Shown here piece after piece: positions 21,954-31,010 of a DNA stretch of 64,000 bases (position 1 is the first letter of the stretch; each line of letters opens with the position of its first letter). Source of the stretch: Calvatia gigantea (Eukaryota > Basidiomycota > Agaricomycetes > Agaricales > Lycoperdaceae). A model generated the notes under the pieces. The model saw only the letters and a list, made by a program, of their open reading frames with translations, had not been told where the DNA came from and did not search any database. Made by a program: the position numbers and the translations under genes. Location of the stretch: positions 1 through 64,000 of the forward strand of contig JACAAK010000023.1 of the NCBI GenBank assembly GCA_025093985.1, in the 5' to 3' direction.

Positions 21954-23366
21954 CTATTTATGTCCTTTCTGTTGTTTAGGTGGGACAGTAGTTAGTTGGT
22001 GTTCTTTTTGGTATTTTTGTAACAGTTCTTGAGCATGTAGTGATAGTTGTACTTCATTTTCCCAAGAGTTTTCTTCATGGTCATAACCTTTCCACTTAAT
22101 GTAATATTCCTTTTGTCTGTTTTTAGTTCAGTAGTTTAGAATTCCTTCAATTTCATATTCTTCTTCTCCTTCTATAATATCAGGGAGGGGTGGTTGTAGA
22201 TTTGGTCCATGGATATTATTTTCAGTGTATTTGGAGAGAAGGGTAGCATGGAATACATTGTGAATTTTCCATGTTTCAGGTAGATTAAGTCAGTAGGAGA
22301 GTGGCAATAGGACTTCTTTTATTGTGAATGGTCTGAGGCATTTCAGTGCTATTTTGTTTGATTTAAATGGGAGTTTCAGGTTTCTCCATTCTAGCCACAC
22401 TTGTTGTCCTAGGGTGAAAGGTTTGAATTTAGATTTGATTCTTTGTTCCATGTGTTCCATGGCTAGCTTATGGGCAGTGATGGCTTCTTTTTGTGTGTGA
22501 TCCAGGGATTTTATTCTTTCTTCAGTGGTGGTAAAGTTTGATTTCTCAAGGATCGTGGGTATTCCATGAGGTTTCATTCCATACATGAGTTCAAAAAGTG
22601 TTTGTTTATGGTCAGAATGTGTTCTTGAATTATGGGAGAATTTGAGGATGGAAAGTGTTTCAGACCAGGTAGAGGGGTTTTCTGTGCAGTAGATGGACAG
22701 GTAGACAGATATTTCCTGGTTGAATCGTTTGGTAGTTCCATCAGATTGAGGGTGGTGGGCTGATGAGAATGATTGAGTGATTCCTAAGCATTTCATAAGA
22801 GCTTGGCTGGAGTTTGCTTAGAATCTGGGGTCATGGTTGGAGATTATTTTGTTTGGTAGTCCAAATCTGGCATAGACCTTGTCTATAATTATGTCAGCAA
22901 TTCCTTTGGCAGTGATTTCTTTTGTACAGGGAGTGAGAATTACCCCCTTTGTAAGTCCATGGTCCACTATGGACAGAATTGCATCAAATCCATGGGATTT
23001 TGGTAAGTCCATTAATAGATCCATTGCAATGTGTGCAAATGGTCTAGTAGAGTTCAGTGGTGGGATTGGTTGTAATGGTGGATGAGCAGGGTTCTGATTA
23101 ATCTTGAATTGTTGGCAAGTGCTGCATTCTTGGATGTAATTTTGTACAAAGGTACTCATTTCTGGCCAGTATACTTCTGCTTTGGCCATTCAGTAGGTTT
23201 CTTGTTCTCCAGGGTGTCTGGCAGAGGGGTGATCATGGTATCATTGGATAATACATTGGCAGAGTTCCACATCTTCTGGGATAATGATTCTTTCTTCAAA
23301 TGTCATAAGTTGTCCTAGTGACATGGGAATAATTCTGTATTTTGGGTTGACTGCTTCTAGTGATTC
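21954..23366 (-). pseudogene. Element F pol, integrase and chromodomain part
   Basis: Left of the P insertion. Zinc-binding region near 23130-23110 (ECSTCQQFK), core AHIAMDLLMDLPKSHGFDAIL, HHPQSDGTTKRFNQE, then C-terminal FTLGQQVWLEWRNLKL. A chromodomain follows at about 22180-22000 ([26 protein letters not shown]). Pol ends at TAG 21954-21956. The catalytic second Asp lies in a segment reading SNHDPRF. Stops and changes make it inactive. The integrase inserts the cDNA; the chromodomain may target heterochromatin. Confidence 0.88.
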
Positions 23367-23913
23367 TGTCATGACCCGCGCACGTTCGCCTGCTCTCACC
23401 CGCTTCCCCCGCTCATAGTCATCATTACCTTAGTCCAGCTGCATTGGGTTACTCTTCATTCTTTCTGTCAGTCGGTCTGATATCCTGTTTTCTATATTAA
23501 TCTCTATCCCCTTCAACTTCTCCACTATCGCCTTATAGTTAAAACTTGATTCTGGTGTCTTGTTAGGCAGCCGCCCTTGGTGGCCATCCATTCTTCATTC
23601 ACCATTACTTTCGTACTTCCCACTTTCAGACTAGTATATAAACCTAGTCCCCACACTTGTAAATCCTTAGTCTGATTATCGACCACGATTATGCCCTCTG
23701 ATTCTGTTCCTCTCTGTCTCTGTTCCTCCGACCCTCTGACTCCACTCCCTCCTGAAATATGGACTTCAACAACAGCAGGAAGGCGCAACACATATGTTGA
23801 AGCTGCTGAGTCCAAATCTTGTACTCGTCCAAATTCATCCGCTCCGTATGTTCTCACCCGATGTCACCTGGCAGCTAACCTTGGCCAATATCCTGTGTAA
23901 CCCAATCGTAACA
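23367..23913 (+). repeat. Element P 5' LTR
   Basis: 547 bp, TGTCATGACC to AATCGTAACA. TATA box TATATAAA at 23635-23642; 34 nt from its start is AGTCTGATTAT (23669-23679), the proposed RNA 5' end, complementary to the primer site at 23916-23926. Confidence 0.94.
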
Positions 23914-23915
23914 GT

Positions 23916-23926
23916 ATAATCAGACT
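23916..23926 (+). promoter_or_regulatory. Chr3 primer site, predicted self-priming
   Basis: ATAATCAGACT lies two bases after the 5' LTR and is the exact 11-nt reverse complement of AGTCTGATTAT at 23669-23679 in the LTR, where transcription should start. Its first bases do not read TGG, so ordinary tRNA 3'-end priming is less likely. Confidence 0.75.
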
Positions 23927-23968
23927 CCACTCCTCTGTCGTTCCTTTGTCCCCTCACCACTGATTACT

Positions 23969-25366
23969 ATGCCTACTATGACCACCAGGTCACAAACCGC
24001 TTCCAAAGCCCAGAAGGTTTCTGTTGCCAGAAGCCGGAAGGCCACCACACCACTTTCCTATGTCACCCCTCAATGCAAAGCTTCTCCTGTAGTAGCACTC
24101 CAAAGAACCCCCGTCGAAGAGATCTTGCAGGAAGGGCCCGATCCTGATCATGAAAATGAGGAGGACTGGTTACCCGACCAAGGTGAGAACCAAAATCAGG
24201 ACCCTTTCAACAAGGGACCCCCAGATCCTGGTGATGGTGATGATGGTGGTGACGATGGTGAAGCCCCTCCTGACAGTAATGCCAGTGATGGTGGTGCCCC
24301 AAATCCACAACACCGAGGATTGACAATGGCGGATGCCATTGCGCTTTTGGCCGACAAGTTAGACGATTGGGCCTGTTCTCAGCTGCCCCAAGTACTCCGA
24401 ACCCCCCGCACCAAGGCCCATGAACCTAACATGTTCAGCAGTGCTAACTCTGAGGAACTCCATCAGTTCCTGTTCCAATGTCAGCTCTACTTTCGCTCCA
24501 ACCCCTCGCTCTTCCCGACTGACAATAATAAGGTGAACTTCACACTCGCCTACTTGACTGATACTGCTCTCCGATGGTTCGAAACAGCTATCAACCAAGA
24601 GAAGACTCTTGGCACTGTCCACCCATGGACCTCTGACTGGGACCTTTTCATCCTAGAGCTGAAAACCAATTTCGGGATTGCAGACCCGCATGGCAAATCC
24701 GCCGAGCTCCTAGACAACCTTTGGATGAAACACTCCGACAAAATCACCAACTACAACGTCGAGTTCGTGCGGCTGTCATCACAGCTCAATTGGAATGACG
24801 AGGTGCTCTGCCACTGATACTACAAAGGGCTCCCAGATCGTCTCCAGGACTCCCTGTCCAGTCGCCCCACTGGTAAGCCCACCACCTTCATCCTGATGCA
24901 GGAGATTACTCTCCTCTTCAATAACCGTTATTGGGAGCATCAGCACAAAAAGACTCGGGCAAAGTCGGCCGCCGAAACAGTGTCCGCTTCTATCAGCAGA
25001 AGGCCTGGCCAGAACCCATCCTCTTCCACCAACAACACCTACAACACCAGCAGCACCAGCAACAAGCCCAACAACACCAGCAACAAGGGCAACAACTCCA
25101 AACCCCCGACATCCACTGCTACCCCCTCTTCCGCCTTGAAGTCCACTTCATCGGCGAAGCCTGATTTGACCGACAAGCTCAGCAAGGATGGCAAGCTAAC
25201 CACCGATGAGTGCAAATGGCACTTGGACAACAACCTCTGTCTGTTCTGTGGAAACGCAGGACACAAGGTGAGTGAGTGCAGGAAGAAAGCTGCCTCAGCC
25301 ATGAAGGCTGTGGCCCGACTCACTGAGGCAGTTGATAGGAACTCTGATAAGAGTTCAGGAAACTAA
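23969..25366 (+). pseudogene. Element P gag
   Basis: Start MPTMTTRSQTASKAQ at 23969, one frame to TAA 25364-25366. Acidic Pro/Asp-rich region (residues about 50-110), capsid block TDTALRWFETAI and FILELKTNFGIADPHGKSAE, typical of retrotransposon Gag; then an Asn/Ser/Thr-rich linker and one zinc knuckle CLFCGNAGHKVSEC (about 25236-25277). A single TGA at 24817 (CGA-to-TGA type) interrupts it. Pol follows in the -1 frame. Confidence 0.92.
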
Positions 25367-25519
25367 GTAGCAGTCCTCGAGACTCTGCACTAGCTGAGGA
25401 CCGTGTTGTACTCACTTGTGCCACAGTGTGTTTCTGACTCAATGCGTCCGCTCTTTCTGATCCCAACTCCTTTCAACTATCTATCTCCTCCTCGCTCATC
25501 CGCTCCCCCTCCAATACCC

Positions 25520-28500
25520 ATTTCAAGGCCCTCATTGATAGTGGCTCTACACACTGCTTCATGGATATTGACTTTATCCGCTCTCATGACCTCCCGACCT
25601 CACCCATTCCTCCTGTTGAGCTCCATTTTTTTGACAGTTCTTCTAGTGCCTTTATTACTGAACTTGTGAAAATCCCTGTTACCTTTGGCTGTGGTGAATC
25701 TATGACTCTGGACTTCTTCGTTACTCGACTCGACTCTTCTTGCTCCGTGGTTCTGGGATACAACTGGCTCACCTGCTATAATCCATTGATTGACTGGGCC
25801 TTGGGCAGTATTACTTTCTGACCACCACAGCTCGAAATTCCTGTCACTCCTTCCTGTGTTGCGACTGCCTCTGCTGTGTCCACACATTCCTTGGTGCTCA
25901 TTTTGGCCGCACCCGCTCCCATAGATCCACAGTCCTCTCTGCCCTCTGGCTCCATGCATCCCCACATTTCCCTGGTGAACGCTGTTGCATTCCTGTGCGC
26001 CATGCGCATTCCTGGTTCAGTTCAATTCAGTCTTAACCTCAACAACCTGTCAATGTCAGCCACTTTGGCTGCCATCAATGAGGAACCTGATGATTGGTCT
26101 AACATCCCCGAAGTATATCATGAGTTTGCCGACATTTTCAGTAAAGCAAAGGCTGACATACTTGCCAAACATAGACCCTATGACTTCCAAATCAATCTGG
26201 AAGAAGGTGGCCAACCTCCTGTTGGTACCATCTACTCTCTGTCCTGGACTGAACTGGAGGCCCTCCATGAATTCATAGAGGAAAACCTTGCCATTGGCTT
26301 TATCCGCCCTTCCAACTCCCCTCATGGAGCTCTGGTCCTTTTTGTCAAGAAGAAGGATGGCTCCCTCCAACTCTGTGTCGACTTCCGAGGTCTCAACTGT
26401 ATCACAAAGAAGGATCACTATCCTCTTCTGCTCATATCTGACTTACTCAACTCTCCATGCAAAGCCTGCATTTACACCAAGATCGACCTCTGCCACACTT
26501 ACCATCTTGTTCGCATTGCAGCTGGTGACAAATGGAAGACGGCCTTTCAGACCCACTACAGCTCGTTCGAATGGCTTGTTATGCCCTTCGGCCTCACTAA
26601 TGCACCTGCTGCTTTCCAGCAGTTCATGAATGACATCTTCAAGGATCTCCTAGATGTTTGCGTTACAGTCTATCTTGACGATATTCTCATCTACTCCGAC
26701 AACCTCAGCAACCACCGCAAGCAGGTTAAGGATGTATTAAAGTGGCTCTGCAAACATGGCCTCTAAGCCCACGTGGATAAGTGTGAGTTCGAATCCAATA
26801 CCATTGAATACCTTGGATATGTCCTCTCCCCCAAAGGTCTCAGAATGTCTGAGGAAAAGGTCAAGATCATCCAGGACTGGCCTGAACCGAAGAAGGTCAA
26901 GGACATACAGTCTTTCCTCGGCTTCACCAACTTCTACCATTGCTTCATCTACAACTACTCTGACATTGTCATCCCACTGACCTGCCTCACCCGAAAGGGC
27001 ATGGTATGGAAGTTCAGCGATGACTGTTGAGAAGCTTTCAGATCATTGAAGGATGCCTTTATCTCAGCACTGGTCCTCACTCACTGGATACCTGATGCTC
27101 AGATTATTGTCGAGACCGACGCATCCGACTACACGCTAGCAGCCATCCTCTCCATCATTGCTGAGGATGGTGAAGTTCACCCCATGGCATTCCACTCCTG
27201 CACCTTCAGTCCAGCTGAGCTGAATTATGATACACTACTTCGAAGGTGCCCCTCTTGTGATCGATGTTGTTACTGATCACAAGAATCTAGAATACTTCTG
27301 TACCACGAAAATCCTCACCCACCGACAAGCCTGCTGGTCCGAGTTCCTCTCCCAGTTCAACCTCATGATTCACTTTCGCCCCGGCCGACTGGGGACAAAA
27401 CCCGATGCTCTTACTAGACGATGGGACGTCTACCCTAAAGGGAGGAATAATGACTATGCTACGGTCAATCCTCACAACTTCAGACCCATCTTTACTCATG
27501 AACAGCTTTCAGCCTCTGTCTGCGCTACATACCTATATGCCCCTTCCCTTCACACAGCCATGATCATTGACCTTGATCAACTCCACTCTGATATCCTCTC
27601 AGCTCTCCCACTTGACCCATCCACAGCCGCTCACATAGCTAAACCAGAAGGACGATGGTCTGTCGACTTAGCTGGTTTTCTCCACCTTGATGACAGGATT
27701 TACGTCCCTGATGCTAACAAGTTATGACTTCGAGTCTTACAGTACAAACATGATCACATCCTCTCTGGCCACTTTGGTTAGAACAAGACTCTTGAACTCG
27801 TCCGCAGAGACTACACTTGGCCCGACATCTGGTCAGCTGTCAAGGACTTCTGTAAGTCATGTGTCACTTGTATGTGATCTAAACCGCAGCACCACAGGCC
27901 ATACGGACTTCTCAAGCAACTCCCCATCCCTGAACAACCCTGGAACTCTATCTCTATGGACTTCATTGAGAAGCTCCCTACCTCCTCTGAGTTTGATACT
28001 ATCCTCATTATTGTCGACAGACTCACCAAACAATCCCTGTTCATTCCTACCCATGACACAATCACATCGGCTGAGTTGGCCCGACTATTCGTCATTCATG
28101 TATTCTCGAAGCATGGTGTTCCCAAATATGTCACGTCCGATCGCAGTTCTGAGTTTGTCTCGCACTTCTTCCAGTCGCTTGGAAAAGTACTGGACATGAA
28201 GTTGCATTTCACTTTGGGTTACCACCCAGAAGGCGATGGACAGACCGAACAGACCAACCAGACCCTCGAGCAATACATTCATGTCTACTGCAATTATCAG
28301 CAGGACAACTGGGCAGAATTACTTCCACTAGCTGAGTTTGCTTACAACAACGCTCCTAGTGCCACGACTGGTGTTTCTCCATTCTTCACTAACAAGGGTT
28401 ATTACCCGAACATCACAGTATACCCCGAGAGAGATTTAGCTTCTAGGTGGGCCCGACAATTCGTTGTTGACCTCGATGAACTCCACAACATGCTAAAGGC

Positions 28501-29035
28501 TGAGATCAAGCTTGCTCAAGGACGTTACCAGACATCTGCTGACGCTCGCCGACTTCCTTCGCCCAACTTCACTATCAGTCAGAAAGTCTTCGTCAAGGCC
28601 AAGTTCTTCCACATGACTCAGCCATCCAAAAAGCTCTCTGAGAAGTATCTCAGTCCTTATGAGATTATAGCACAACCTGGTTCCGTTTCATTCACTCTCA
28701 GACTCCCTGACTCACTTCATGCTGTTCACCCGGTTTTCCATATCTCTATGCTAGAACCTGCCACACCCAACACCTTCAACAGCCACTCTGAGCTGCCTCC
28801 CCCACCTGTCATGGTTGAAGGTGAACCGGAGTACAAAATTGCTCGTGTTGTTGACTCGAAGATCGACTGCCATCGAGCTTGCAAGCTTTTGTACAAAGTT
28901 ATCTGGTTAGATTATGAAGACACTGAAGAAGAGTCTTTCTGGTTACCTGCTACTGAGCTAGCACATGCAGCTGAACTTCTTGCAGACTTTCATTCCTCTT
29001 ATCCTTCTAAGCCTGGACCTTTGAACCCTCTATGA
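25520..29035 (+). pseudogene. Element P pol with C-terminal chromodomain
   Basis: Protease [11 protein letters not shown] near 25540; RT with FVKKKDGSLQLCVDFRGL and catalytic YLDD at about 26680; RNase H start VETDASDYTLAAILS at 27100. Near 27236 about 40 bp are missing where HDKELL-type residues are expected, which shifts the frame. From 27227 the frame continues: [14 protein letters not shown], integrase MDFIEKLPTSSEFDTILIIV, TSDR, YHPEGDGQTEQTNQT, and a chromodomain at about 28830-29010 (EYKIARVVDSK, LYKVIWLDYEDTEEESFWLP). Six or so stops occur (for example 25820, 26766, 27028, 27725). Integrase and chromodomain form a 359-codon open stretch (27956-29035). Confidence 0.93.
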
Positions 29036-29154
29036 TTTTTTCCTTACTTAAATTTCTTTCACACTTCATTTACACAGACAAATCAGTTTATTGCACATTA
29101 TCAACTATCAACAATTATGTAATGTCCAAAATATGAGGAGAAGATGGCCACAGA

Positions 29155-30305
29155 TCACTGGGCAGTTTCACCTGACTCAGCTGCTTCCTCCACTTCTTCC
29201 TCTTTTTCCTCTTCACTCTTGTTTCCATTGTCTTCCCCCATCTCCATTACTACCTCCATTTCCTCCTGGGTTTCACCCAGCATGCGGGCCTCCTCATTGT
29301 CATCCTCGTTGTCATTATCATCGTCAGCCAGTCCCAGGGCATCCATCACCTGCTGAACCATCAGTCCAATGCTGCACTGATACCCGCCATTCTTGATGAC
29401 TGCAGCCTCAACATTCCTCCTGAGCTCATTCGCCCGCTCCAGCCGCAGCAACTGCTCCTCTCCAATCTCAATCAGCCTATCCATCCTCACCCCCTGATCC
29501 TCCATAATGGACGTGATCCTCTCCAGGATATCGTTTTGGCAAGTAAGGAGAGCTGCAAGTTGATCATTGCTGACCTGAGATACTTGAGTGGCGACAGTGA
29601 TTGGCCAATGATGGGCAGATGGAAGGCGACAAGCCTTCTTCAACAGCGAACATTCGAGGCACTTTGTGACCTCGCAACTAGAATGGCCATTAACACAATC
29701 ACTGGGAAGCTAAGTGCCACTTACTTTGACATCGACTCCCTAATTGTGCAAGGATTGCCGTTGTCGAGACATCGCTCACACTTATTATGGCCACCCATCT
29801 TGACCTTCTTTCCATTGACTGCAGGTGGCTCATCCTCGCCCGATTCCCTTCAGTCCAGGTCTGGCTTGCCCCCGAAATCTGACTCTTCATCGACGCATCT
29901 CCTTTTCAACAATGGTGGCACCTTCCCAACCCACTCCTTCATGATCCTCCATTGACGTCACTTCTCGGCTGTTATCTTCTTATCTGCTTCATCAGCGGCC
30001 TTACGCTTTCCTTCGCGTCTGCTCGCCCACGCCAACTCCTCATGTTGCTCCTCCTCCCACACTGCTTGTTTCTCACATTCCTTCCTCTCCTACTCCTCTT
30101 GCTCCTCTTGCTCCTTCTTTTCCCGTGCTTCTCATTCCACCTGTTCTTGTCTCTCTTGCTCCTTGTTCTCCTCCAATTCGCACAGCTCGCGTTTGGCCTG
30201 CTGTTCCACCTCCTCCTGCCTTTCCAGTTCAAGTTGCTTGTATTCACACATGGCCTCTAGCTCGGCCCGTTTCTCCACAGCAGTTTTCTTGATAGGGCTG
30301 GACAT
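29155..30305 (-). pseudogene. Antisense intron-containing gene in P, Zn(II)2Cys6-like coiled-coil protein
   Basis: Lies between pol and the 3' LTR, on the strand opposite to the element genes. Exon 1 is 30305-29725 (start MSSPIKKTAVEKRAELEAM), intron 29724-29678 (47 nt; donor GTAAGT, TTAAT-type branch site, acceptor TTCTAG), exon 2 is 29677-29155; total 367 codons plus stop. Exon 1 encodes a long Glu/Lys/Arg-rich coiled coil, then CERCLDNGNPC; splicing joins it to KCLECSLLKKAC. The result is C-x2-C-x6-C, spacer, C-x2-C-x6-C, the Zn(II)2Cys6 pattern. The C-terminus has another helix and an acidic tail. Exon 1 has four in-frame stops (transition type), so this copy is dead. The intron could survive retrotransposition because it is antisense. 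Probably a captured host-type DNA-binding gene. Confidence 0.75.
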
Positions 30306-30467
30306 GGTAGTGGTCGAGGTGGTGGTGGTTAGAGTAAGAGAATGGGACCGTAAAATTTCCAAGGTGACGAAATTTACATGCACCATCAAAAGTCTAATTG
30401 GAGATTCCCACAGTCTGATTTCATGGCCTCGAGGGCTTGGCCCTAATGGGGGGATACTATCATGACC

Positions 30468-31005
30468 CACACACATTTGCCCGCTCTCACCCGCTTCCCC
30501 CACTCGTAGTCATCATTACCTTAGTCCGGCTGCATTGGGTTGCTCTTCATTCATTCTGTCAGTCGGTCTGATATCCTGTTTTCTATATTAATCTCTATCC
30601 CCTTCAACTTCTCCACTATCACCTTATAGTTAAAACTTGATTCTGGTGTCTTGTTAGGTGGCCGCCCTCGGCAGCTGTCCATTCTTTGTTCACCATTACT
30701 TTTGTACTTCCCACTTTTCAGACTAGTATATAAACCTAGTCCCCACACTTGTAAATCCTTAGTCTGATTATCGACCACGATTATGCCCTCTGATTCTGTT
30801 CCTCTCTGTCTCTGTTCCTCCGACCCTCTGACTCCACTCCCTCCTGAAATACGGACTTCAACAACAGCAGGAAGGCGCAACACATATGTTGAAGCCACTG
30901 AGTCCAAATCTTGTACTCATCTGAATTCACCCACTCCGTATGTTCTCACCCAACATCATCTGGCAGCTAACCTCGGCTGATATCCCACATAACCCGATTG
31001 TAACA
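30468..31005 (+). repeat. Element P 3' LTR
   Basis: 538 bp. Starts TATCATGACC (TG to TA change), ends GATTGTAACA. Differences from the 5' LTR are mostly transitions. Confidence 0.94.
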
Positions 31006-31010
31006 GATTC

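Follow-up and report, generated by a model that had tools for sequence, protein, structure and literature searches.

The DNA analysed here (hereafter the window) is a stretch of 64,000 nucleotides from the basidiomycete Calvatia gigantea, positions 1 to 64,000 of contig JACAAK010000023.1. It harbors element P, a Ty3/gypsy retrotransposon probably of the chromovirus type, and in this element a gene with two exons is encoded on the minus strand at 30305-29155, between pol and the 3′ long terminal repeat (LTR). Comparison of its copies indicates that this gene is almost certainly real, antisense, and spliced: its 47-nt intron is found in all the aligned copies of P and in those of a sister family, Q. 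The product probably, though by no means surely, acts in the nucleus, binding DNA and regulating its own element. The whole picture, in which a spliced antisense accessory gene supplies a DNA-binding self-regulator that works in trans and probably acts at a CCCGCT array in the LTRs, has about an even chance of being right.

For 29155-30305, the letters of the minus strand were inspected directly, along with their translations in all three frames. The antisense gene and its flanks consist of the following parts:

30305-29725, minus strand: exon 1, 581 nt, with the ATG at 30305, encoding a charged coil and the first C-x2-C-x6-C half-motif (29780-29748)
29724-29678, minus strand: intron, 47 nt, phase 2, GTAAGT...TTCTAG
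29677-29155, minus strand: exon 2, 523 nt including the stop codon, encoding the second C-x2-C-x6-C half-motif (29661-29629), probable helices, and an acidic tail
29087-29092, minus strand: AATAAA, 63 nt past the antisense stop, kept in 21 of the 21 P copies with this flank
30306-30457, minus strand: upstream or leader region of the antisense gene, 152 nt, putatively with its promoter, including the purine-rich tract of the sense element adjoining the 3′ LTR

Start codon, exons, and location between pol and the 3′ LTR agree with an original prediction made for this DNA, as does its statement that the two half-motifs share one frame solely after intron removal, which the three-frame translation confirmed. 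The prediction had also credited the window copy with a 367-amino acid protein, and this does not hold: 367 is a length and not an open frame. The spliced reading has 368 codons counting the stop and exon 2 is free of internal stops, while exon 1 contains four in-frame stops, and therefore the window copy is a pseudogene unable to make the protein. An additional Cys in its linker (SCEVTKC) occurs in some P copies and is replaced by Arg in others.

Further copies were collected from the genome assembly (46 Mb in 77 contigs), which gives 48 matches, 40 of them taken as places. The P set consists of the window copy and 34 further copies (n = 35); the remaining five places are partial copies. A 47-nt intron with a GTAAGT donor and a TAG acceptor is found in all 35, the ATG start in 33, and a CTRAY branch-like motif in the intron of 34, the sole copy without it at intron positions 21-42 being that of the window. 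The frame is fully open in five of the 35, and long gag and pol frames are also retained in some P copies. Each of the six cysteines is kept in 33-35 copies, and the mean majority share of the cysteine codons is 0.981 vs 0.834 across all codons. Exon-2 length classes of 523, 538, 541, 559, and 484 nt cover 27 of the 35 copies, with steps in multiples of three, the pattern that a coding exon should show; in one compared pair of products, the length difference falls in the acidic tail. The constancy of the splice sites within P alone is weak evidence, because the sites have no CpG and the decay of the copies is driven by transitions (see below), and it is the comparison between P and Q that carries the weight.

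Family Q came to light in a protein search of the genome: ranked beneath the close copies were 17 places with identities of 26-35%, each adjoining a pol match of a related family (a pairing read off the match lists). The Q set consists of 12 loci, eight of these 17 places and four picked by pol alone. In its C-terminal part, Q pol shares 72-84% identity with the pol of the window, and the antisense proteins of P and Q are about 31% identical. In Q, the orthologue lies at the identical place, on the identical strand, and with the intron in the identical phase (phase 2, between the half-clusters). All 12 Q copies have a 47-nt intron with an acceptor ending in TTAG, and the donor is GTAAGT in ten, with GTAAAT and GTGAGT in the other two. 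The intron ends match those of P, whereas the interiors are unrelated (6 of 36 positions identical; range over the P copies, 5-9). The antisense frame is open in two of the 12 copies; both cysteine halves are intact in eight and one half in four, and the open copies of P and Q alike keep the pattern C-x2-C-x6-C-x13-C-x2-C-x6-C. AATAAA follows the Q antisense stop at +51 in eight copies and at +73 in one more.

A comparison by BLASTP of one P product with one Q product aligns just 19 N-terminal residues (E 0.017), and the Q matches in the genome search, with E down to 1.4e-6, pass along the charged coil, and composition may account for part of them. Homology of the two genes is therefore argued from their place, strand, intron phase and length, cysteine spacing, and these genome matches, taken together. 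The original prediction had turned to other P copies, to uninterrupted versions, and to related proteins. The splice sites stand in 35/35 P copies and the 47-nt intron in 12/12 Q copies, so that its intron can be regarded as real, and a related protein exists as the Q orthologue. Uninterrupted versions, in turn, did not appear: no intron-less gene is present among the 47 aligned copies (35 P and 12 Q).

Furthermore, the gene is a regular constituent of the elements. From 115 pol matches, 60 near-full matches of the clade were drawn, leaving out partial ones and a group at 31-35% identity; in 59 of these 60, an antisense gene lies on the opposite strand not more than 1.5 kb downstream of pol, 26 being of type P and 33 of type Q. 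Because of this association, the antisense gene belongs to the P/Q element clade. The single pol match without it belongs to a rearranged copy, with pol followed by an inverted Q-type LTR. In control families with pol 32-35% identical, an antisense pair of C-x2-C-x6-C motifs was found in none of five loci of 3.3 kb, and no comparable long antisense frame was present among the frames listed. There are other arrangements in more distant families. In all three of the loci L055-L057 (a Ty3 family, pol about 32%), an extra frame on the sense strand follows directly after pol (nt ~180-1180, element sense); it has up to 330 residues, begins with PNMSSQANRI..., and is broken in two, and a start resembling it is seen at nt 2669 of L059. 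Distinct families here may carry distinct extra genes at one site.

Element P of the window, which appears by eye to be inserted within another Ty3/gypsy element on the minus strand, is organized as follows:

23367-31005, plus strand: element P, Ty3/gypsy, probably chromovirus-type retrotransposon
23367-23913, plus strand: 5′ LTR, 547 nt, with the target-site duplication GATTC at 23362-23366
23969-25363, plus strand: gag region, broken in the window copy, with matches to DUF4939 and Ty3_capsid below the cut-off
25876-29035, plus strand: pol region, from reverse transcriptase to integrase, with SH3_Tf2-1 and a chromodomain-like end, broken; its last open reading frame (ORF) is 27956-29035
30458-31005, plus strand: 3′ LTR, with the target-site duplication GATTC at 31006-31010

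The LTRs of P are 547-548 nt long, with the same GATTC on either side. In a Pfam search of the window pol, RVT_1 and SH3_Tf2-1 exceed the cut-off; in this broken copy, the integrase core (rve) reaches 24.7 vs a cut-off of 32.6, with a match covering a piece of the domain, and the chromodomain reaches 22.1 vs 25.1. After the 5′ LTR, the stretch taatcagact (~23917-23926) is the reverse complement of agtctgatta in the LTR (23669-23678), close to the presumed transcript start. This complementarity suggests Tf1-type self-priming of P.

The two LTRs of the window copy are identical at 503 of 545 positions, and 41 of the 42 differences are transitions. Indeed, over 15 same-strand LTR pairs from the window and L010-L026 (the L018 pair, on opposite strands, was dropped), 359 of 362 differences are transitions, 223 of them with CpG in one copy and 136 without. 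The copies may thus have undergone a methylation-like decay, although other causes of C-to-T change are possible. With this decay in the background, the antisense gene seems to be constrained while the element is active and to decay after insertion. The ratio of nonsynonymous to synonymous change (NG86 dN/dS) between P subfamilies is 0.24-0.31, a value overstating constraint because most changes are transitions. In six pairs of open copies across the subfamilies, 43-49% of changes are synonymous, where transitions would lead one to expect about 35% (p 0.03 to 0.0007); the pairs are mutually dependent and the copies were picked for open frames. Pol was counted as well for a single pair, and there the synonymous shares of the two genes are alike (0.479 and 0.480). 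The fraction of transition-variable sites among the 35 P copies is 0.34, 0.25, and 0.37 by codon position, and the lack of a strong excess at the third position fits variation that arose mostly through decay after insertion. In a comparison of L011 with L019, the antisense gene is about 10.6% different (117 in ~1100 sites) and pol about 4.7% (175 in ~3730), which suggests either that templates of different subfamilies were switched close to the 3′ end or that this region evolves faster.

The cysteine cluster is the principal hint to the function of the protein. Zn(II)2Cys6 proteins bind two zinc ions and DNA of the CGG type, and have the consensus C-x2-C-x6-C-x5-12-C-x2-C-x6-8-C, with basic residues between the second and third Cys of the first half. 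The original prediction called the antisense product Zn(II)2Cys6-like. As far as spacing is concerned, this is correct for both halves, in P as well as in Q; membership in the Pfam family is not supported, given a score below the cut-off, a linker of 13 residues in both families vs 5-12, and a basic half that comes second. Zn_clus (PF00172) is the best sub-threshold match for the cut-out cores, with at best 15.1 bits for the Q core and 13.8 bits for the P core vs a cut-off of 21; it scores 10.2 bits on the whole Q protein and gives no match on two whole P proteins. The profile aligns the first half-cluster with positions 15-37 of 39, namely with its own second half. As judged by eye, the first halves (CERCLDNGDPC and CKRCIDMGIRC) are followed by second halves that are the basic ones (CLECSLSKKAC and CATCVKGKRKC), and the half-motifs may stand in reversed order relative to Zn(II)2Cys6. 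Metal binding and the fold of the six-cysteine cluster are predictions from these sequences. Basic patches are also seen, one in P and five in Q.

Relatives of the protein were sought more widely. No relative of residues 110-325 of one P product was obtained at E <= 0.001 among 664 candidate proteins, and nothing was obtained at E <= 10 for residues 143-300 of one Q product among 107 candidates; this protein collection gives the impression of being poor in fungi, so that the absence of relatives from it says little. A five-copy P profile met only P0001 at E 0.15 among 7990 candidates scored, a protein that has charged stretches and lacks such a cysteine cluster. In the Protein Data Bank (PDB), a de novo repeat protein stood at the top of the profile search (E 0.0027) through a short helical stretch and was treated as no match. 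Among viral contigs searched with a profile, none of 526 pattern matches was confirmed. The relatives that the original prediction sought were found in the genome, as family Q, and no match passed a cut-off in these searches outside it. Its proposal of a host-type regulator found no support: the matches listed by two protein searches of the genome lay in P/Q copies or fragments, with no host-like gene among them, and the protein collection, seemingly with few fungi, gave no host homologue either.

A candidate target for the product is located in the LTRs themselves:

23389-23414, plus strand: CCCGCT array, period of about 9 bp, in the initial part of the 5′ LTR; its first unit has decayed; candidate binding site
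30480-30505, plus strand: CCCGCT array of the 3′ LTR, last unit decayed, 175-200 bp upstream of the antisense ATG

One P LTR and one Q LTR were compared by blastn-short, taking blocks at E 0.01 or better. The blocks common to both are few: a 30-nt block with GCGCAACACATACGTTGAAGC, the CCCGCT array, AATCCTCAGTCTGA, and the CT-rich TCTCTGTCTCTGT; a TATA stretch, GTATATAAACC, is shared at E 0.064. The longest block, GCAGGARGGCGCAACACATACGTTGAAGCC, lies at 409-438 of the P LTR and 488-517 of the Q LTR and contains CAAC-N6-GTTG, possibly a protein site or an RNA structure. CCCGCT occurs four times in a young P LTR, five times in a Q LTR, and not at all in reverse orientation, compared with 0.4 to 0.5 in shuffled sequences, where the observed count was reached in 1 of 2000 shuffles for each LTR. 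In P, the spacing of 8-11 bp is regular (three units; 1 of 2000 shuffles), and six of the eight Q LTRs that could be delimited hold three to five CCCGCT. The paired motif is found at 99 places of the genome vs 26 for a reversed control pattern; at 70 of the 99, the spacers are those of P or Q, and the other 29 are about the background. That the array is the target of the antisense product is a tentative suggestion, somewhat on the doubtful side.

From these elements, the following course of events can be proposed. The minus strand would be transcribed from a promoter of its own or one borne by the LTR, the transcript would be spliced once, as the comparison of copies indicates, and polyadenylation would take place ahead of pol, at AATAAA. 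Through splicing, the two C-x2-C-x6-C halves would come together as a Zn2Cys6-like cluster of six cysteines, with the charged coil, a probable helical region, and the acidic tail on its flanks. Most likely, the protein would then act in trans in the nucleus, bind DNA, and regulate its own element, with the CCCGCT array close to the LTR start as the probable point of action. In the 5′ LTR, the sense promoter has the array on its upstream side, as has the antisense gene at the 3′ LTR, and one protein could therefore control both directions. The mode could be activation, repression, or the lifting of silencing; an anti-silencing role is plausible because the copies show methylation-like decay.

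Survival of the intron finds a simple account, since reverse transcription uses the sense RNA, on which antisense splice sites are unreadable. Persistence of antisense introns through replication via sense RNA is established splicing logic, and the claim that an antisense intron is compatible with transmission via the sense genomic RNA stands. Because the gene has an intron, it would have entered the element as DNA or as an antisense copy rather than via spliced mRNA, or may have gained the intron later. In a more elaborate and rather unlikely version, the product would be a spliced antisense anti-silencing or autoregulatory factor whose splice-assembled zinc cluster, with reversed halves, reads a helically spaced CCCGCT array; protein and array would have drifted together between P and Q, giving each family a private two-strand switch.

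Several observations weigh against a regulatory protein acting at this array. No Pfam family reaches its cut-off for the antisense product. GAL4 appeared in the PDB search with one P copy at E 0.3, which was treated as no match, and was absent from the searches with the five-copy P profile and with Q. A single-sequence fold of exon 2 of the window gives helices at a mean predicted local distance difference test (pLDDT) score of 49, that is, with low confidence. The CCCGCT motif was selected after looking, its regular spacing is weak in Q (two units, p = 0.014), and it is nearly or wholly lost in two Q LTRs (one in L054 and none in L052). Copies of one LTR family share motifs through descent, and the common LTR block may serve ordinary host factors. 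As for the gene, the frame is broken or not open in 30 of 35 P and 10 of 12 Q copies, three of four within-subfamily pairs look neutral, and a young P copy (LTRs identical at 546 of 547 positions) has a stop in the antisense gene, which is therefore not required in cis.

These points leave room for other explanations. The protein may be an anti-silencing factor like VANC of Arabidopsis, which would bind short repeats in its own element and strip silencing marks, and not a promoter activator or repressor. This is an unlikely reading, albeit one with several facts on its side: the transition bias of the LTRs and the share with CpG are as under cytosine methylation, the protein diverges fast between P and Q, and the motif repeats lie in noncoding DNA, as VANC targets do according to excerpts of PMC5735166. 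However, the 136 transitions without CpG could also come from repeat-induced mutation or other causes, and VANC proteins come from DNA transposons.

Or the antisense RNA itself may act, forming double-stranded RNA with the genomic RNA and thereby limiting copy number, with the frame a remnant. The many broken frames fit this idea, which has been published for plant elements (excerpts of PMC7264820), and yet P and Q retain the frame, the intron, the cysteine spacing, and mostly three-base steps in exon-2 length, and the P subfamilies show a synonymous excess, so that an action of RNA alone is quite improbable. Very improbable is a role as DNA tether or nuclear-import factor for the complex of cDNA and integrase, guiding the choice of insertion site: it would make use of the basic patches and the coil and recalls the antisense protein of Grande, reported to be nuclear in excerpts of PMC7264820 and PMC11963269, but the integrase already ends in a chromodomain-like part (below the cut-off in the window copy).

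A host gene captured and carried along without serving the element would account for the spliceosomal intron and the cysteine pattern of fungal type, both of which have a host-like look, and capture of antisense DNA would preserve the intron; the association with 59 of 60 pol matches over two families, a constraint like that of pol in the one pair compared, and the lack of a host homologue in the two genome searches make it highly unlikely. Finally, a chance frame with chance splice sites, which a broken window copy and the ease with which charged repeats yield long frames might evoke, is negligible, being refuted by family Q with its orthologous intron of the same phase and length but unrelated interior, and its conserved cysteine spacing.

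For the DNA-binding self-regulator, a class of comparable genes exists. Antisense genes between pol and the 3′ LTR are known in Grande, Retand, and Boty (brtn), according to excerpts of PMC7264820, PMC11963269, PMC8365987, and PMC4227169, and the gene in P shares two features of the class called antisense additional ORF of LTR retrotransposons (aORF-3R): it runs antisense to gag-pol in the space that separates pol from the 3′ LTR, and most copies of the family have it. A third feature of the class is an antisense promoter and transcript of its own, which are putative in P. Their function is stated as unknown, and a DNA-binding regulatory role has already been proposed for them (excerpts of PMC11963269 and PMC7264820). 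The nearest case is brtn of Boty from Botrytis cinerea (Zhao et al., 2011, as described in excerpts of PMC7264820, PMC8365987, and PMC4227169), which likewise lies antisense between pol and the 3′ LTR of a fungal chromodomain Ty3/gypsy element; this likeness is drawn from descriptions in the citing papers and concerns the type of element, the place, and the strand. The antisense ORFs of the plant elements Retand, Grande, and RIRE2 are of a similar class, with a TRP28 domain in Retand, for which DNA binding is suggested, and with an own promoter and a nuclear product in Grande (excerpts of PMC11963269 and PMC7264820). They differ in belonging to plant elements, Retand being a non-chromovirus; the word intron is absent from the main texts of the same two papers, and no cysteine cluster is described for these ORFs in their excerpts. 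Among rotifer elements with extra ORFs, excerpts of PMC5408684 include no antisense gene, and a literature search, mostly without subscription journals, showed no spliced antisense gene of a fungal element among the titles and abstracts listed. Relative to the descriptions of Grande, Retand, and brtn, the last known through citing papers only, the new features are the splicing and the cysteine cluster.

These two features make the case useful. The intron fixes strand and frame of an antisense gene by comparison alone, and the cysteine cluster suggests DNA binding, for which the conserved LTR block is a concrete candidate target amenable to a binding assay. Fungal Zn(II)2Cys6 regulators (PF00172, GAL4) also have two C-x2-C-x6-C halves followed by a probable helical stretch and an acidic region, while the P/Q protein departs from them in its sub-cut-off Pfam score, its linker of 13, its basic half in second place, and a cluster lying mid-protein after a long charged coil. 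Moreover, with an antisense intron that survives retrotransposition, nature provides a clean case of something seen elsewhere in retroviral vectors and antisense genes; the HBZ transcript of human T-cell leukemia virus type 1 (HTLV-1) is spliced. HBZ is also an antisense retroviral gene for a nuclear regulator (excerpts of PMC11963269), and differs as a bZIP protein of a human retrovirus, with no sequence relation claimed. Like the protein proposed here, VANC of the VANDAL transposons is encoded by an element, evolves fast, and binds DNA, and the noncoding DNA of that element contains short repeated motifs (excerpts of PMC5735166); VANC differs in coming from a plant DNA transposon and in that anti-silencing is demonstrated for it.
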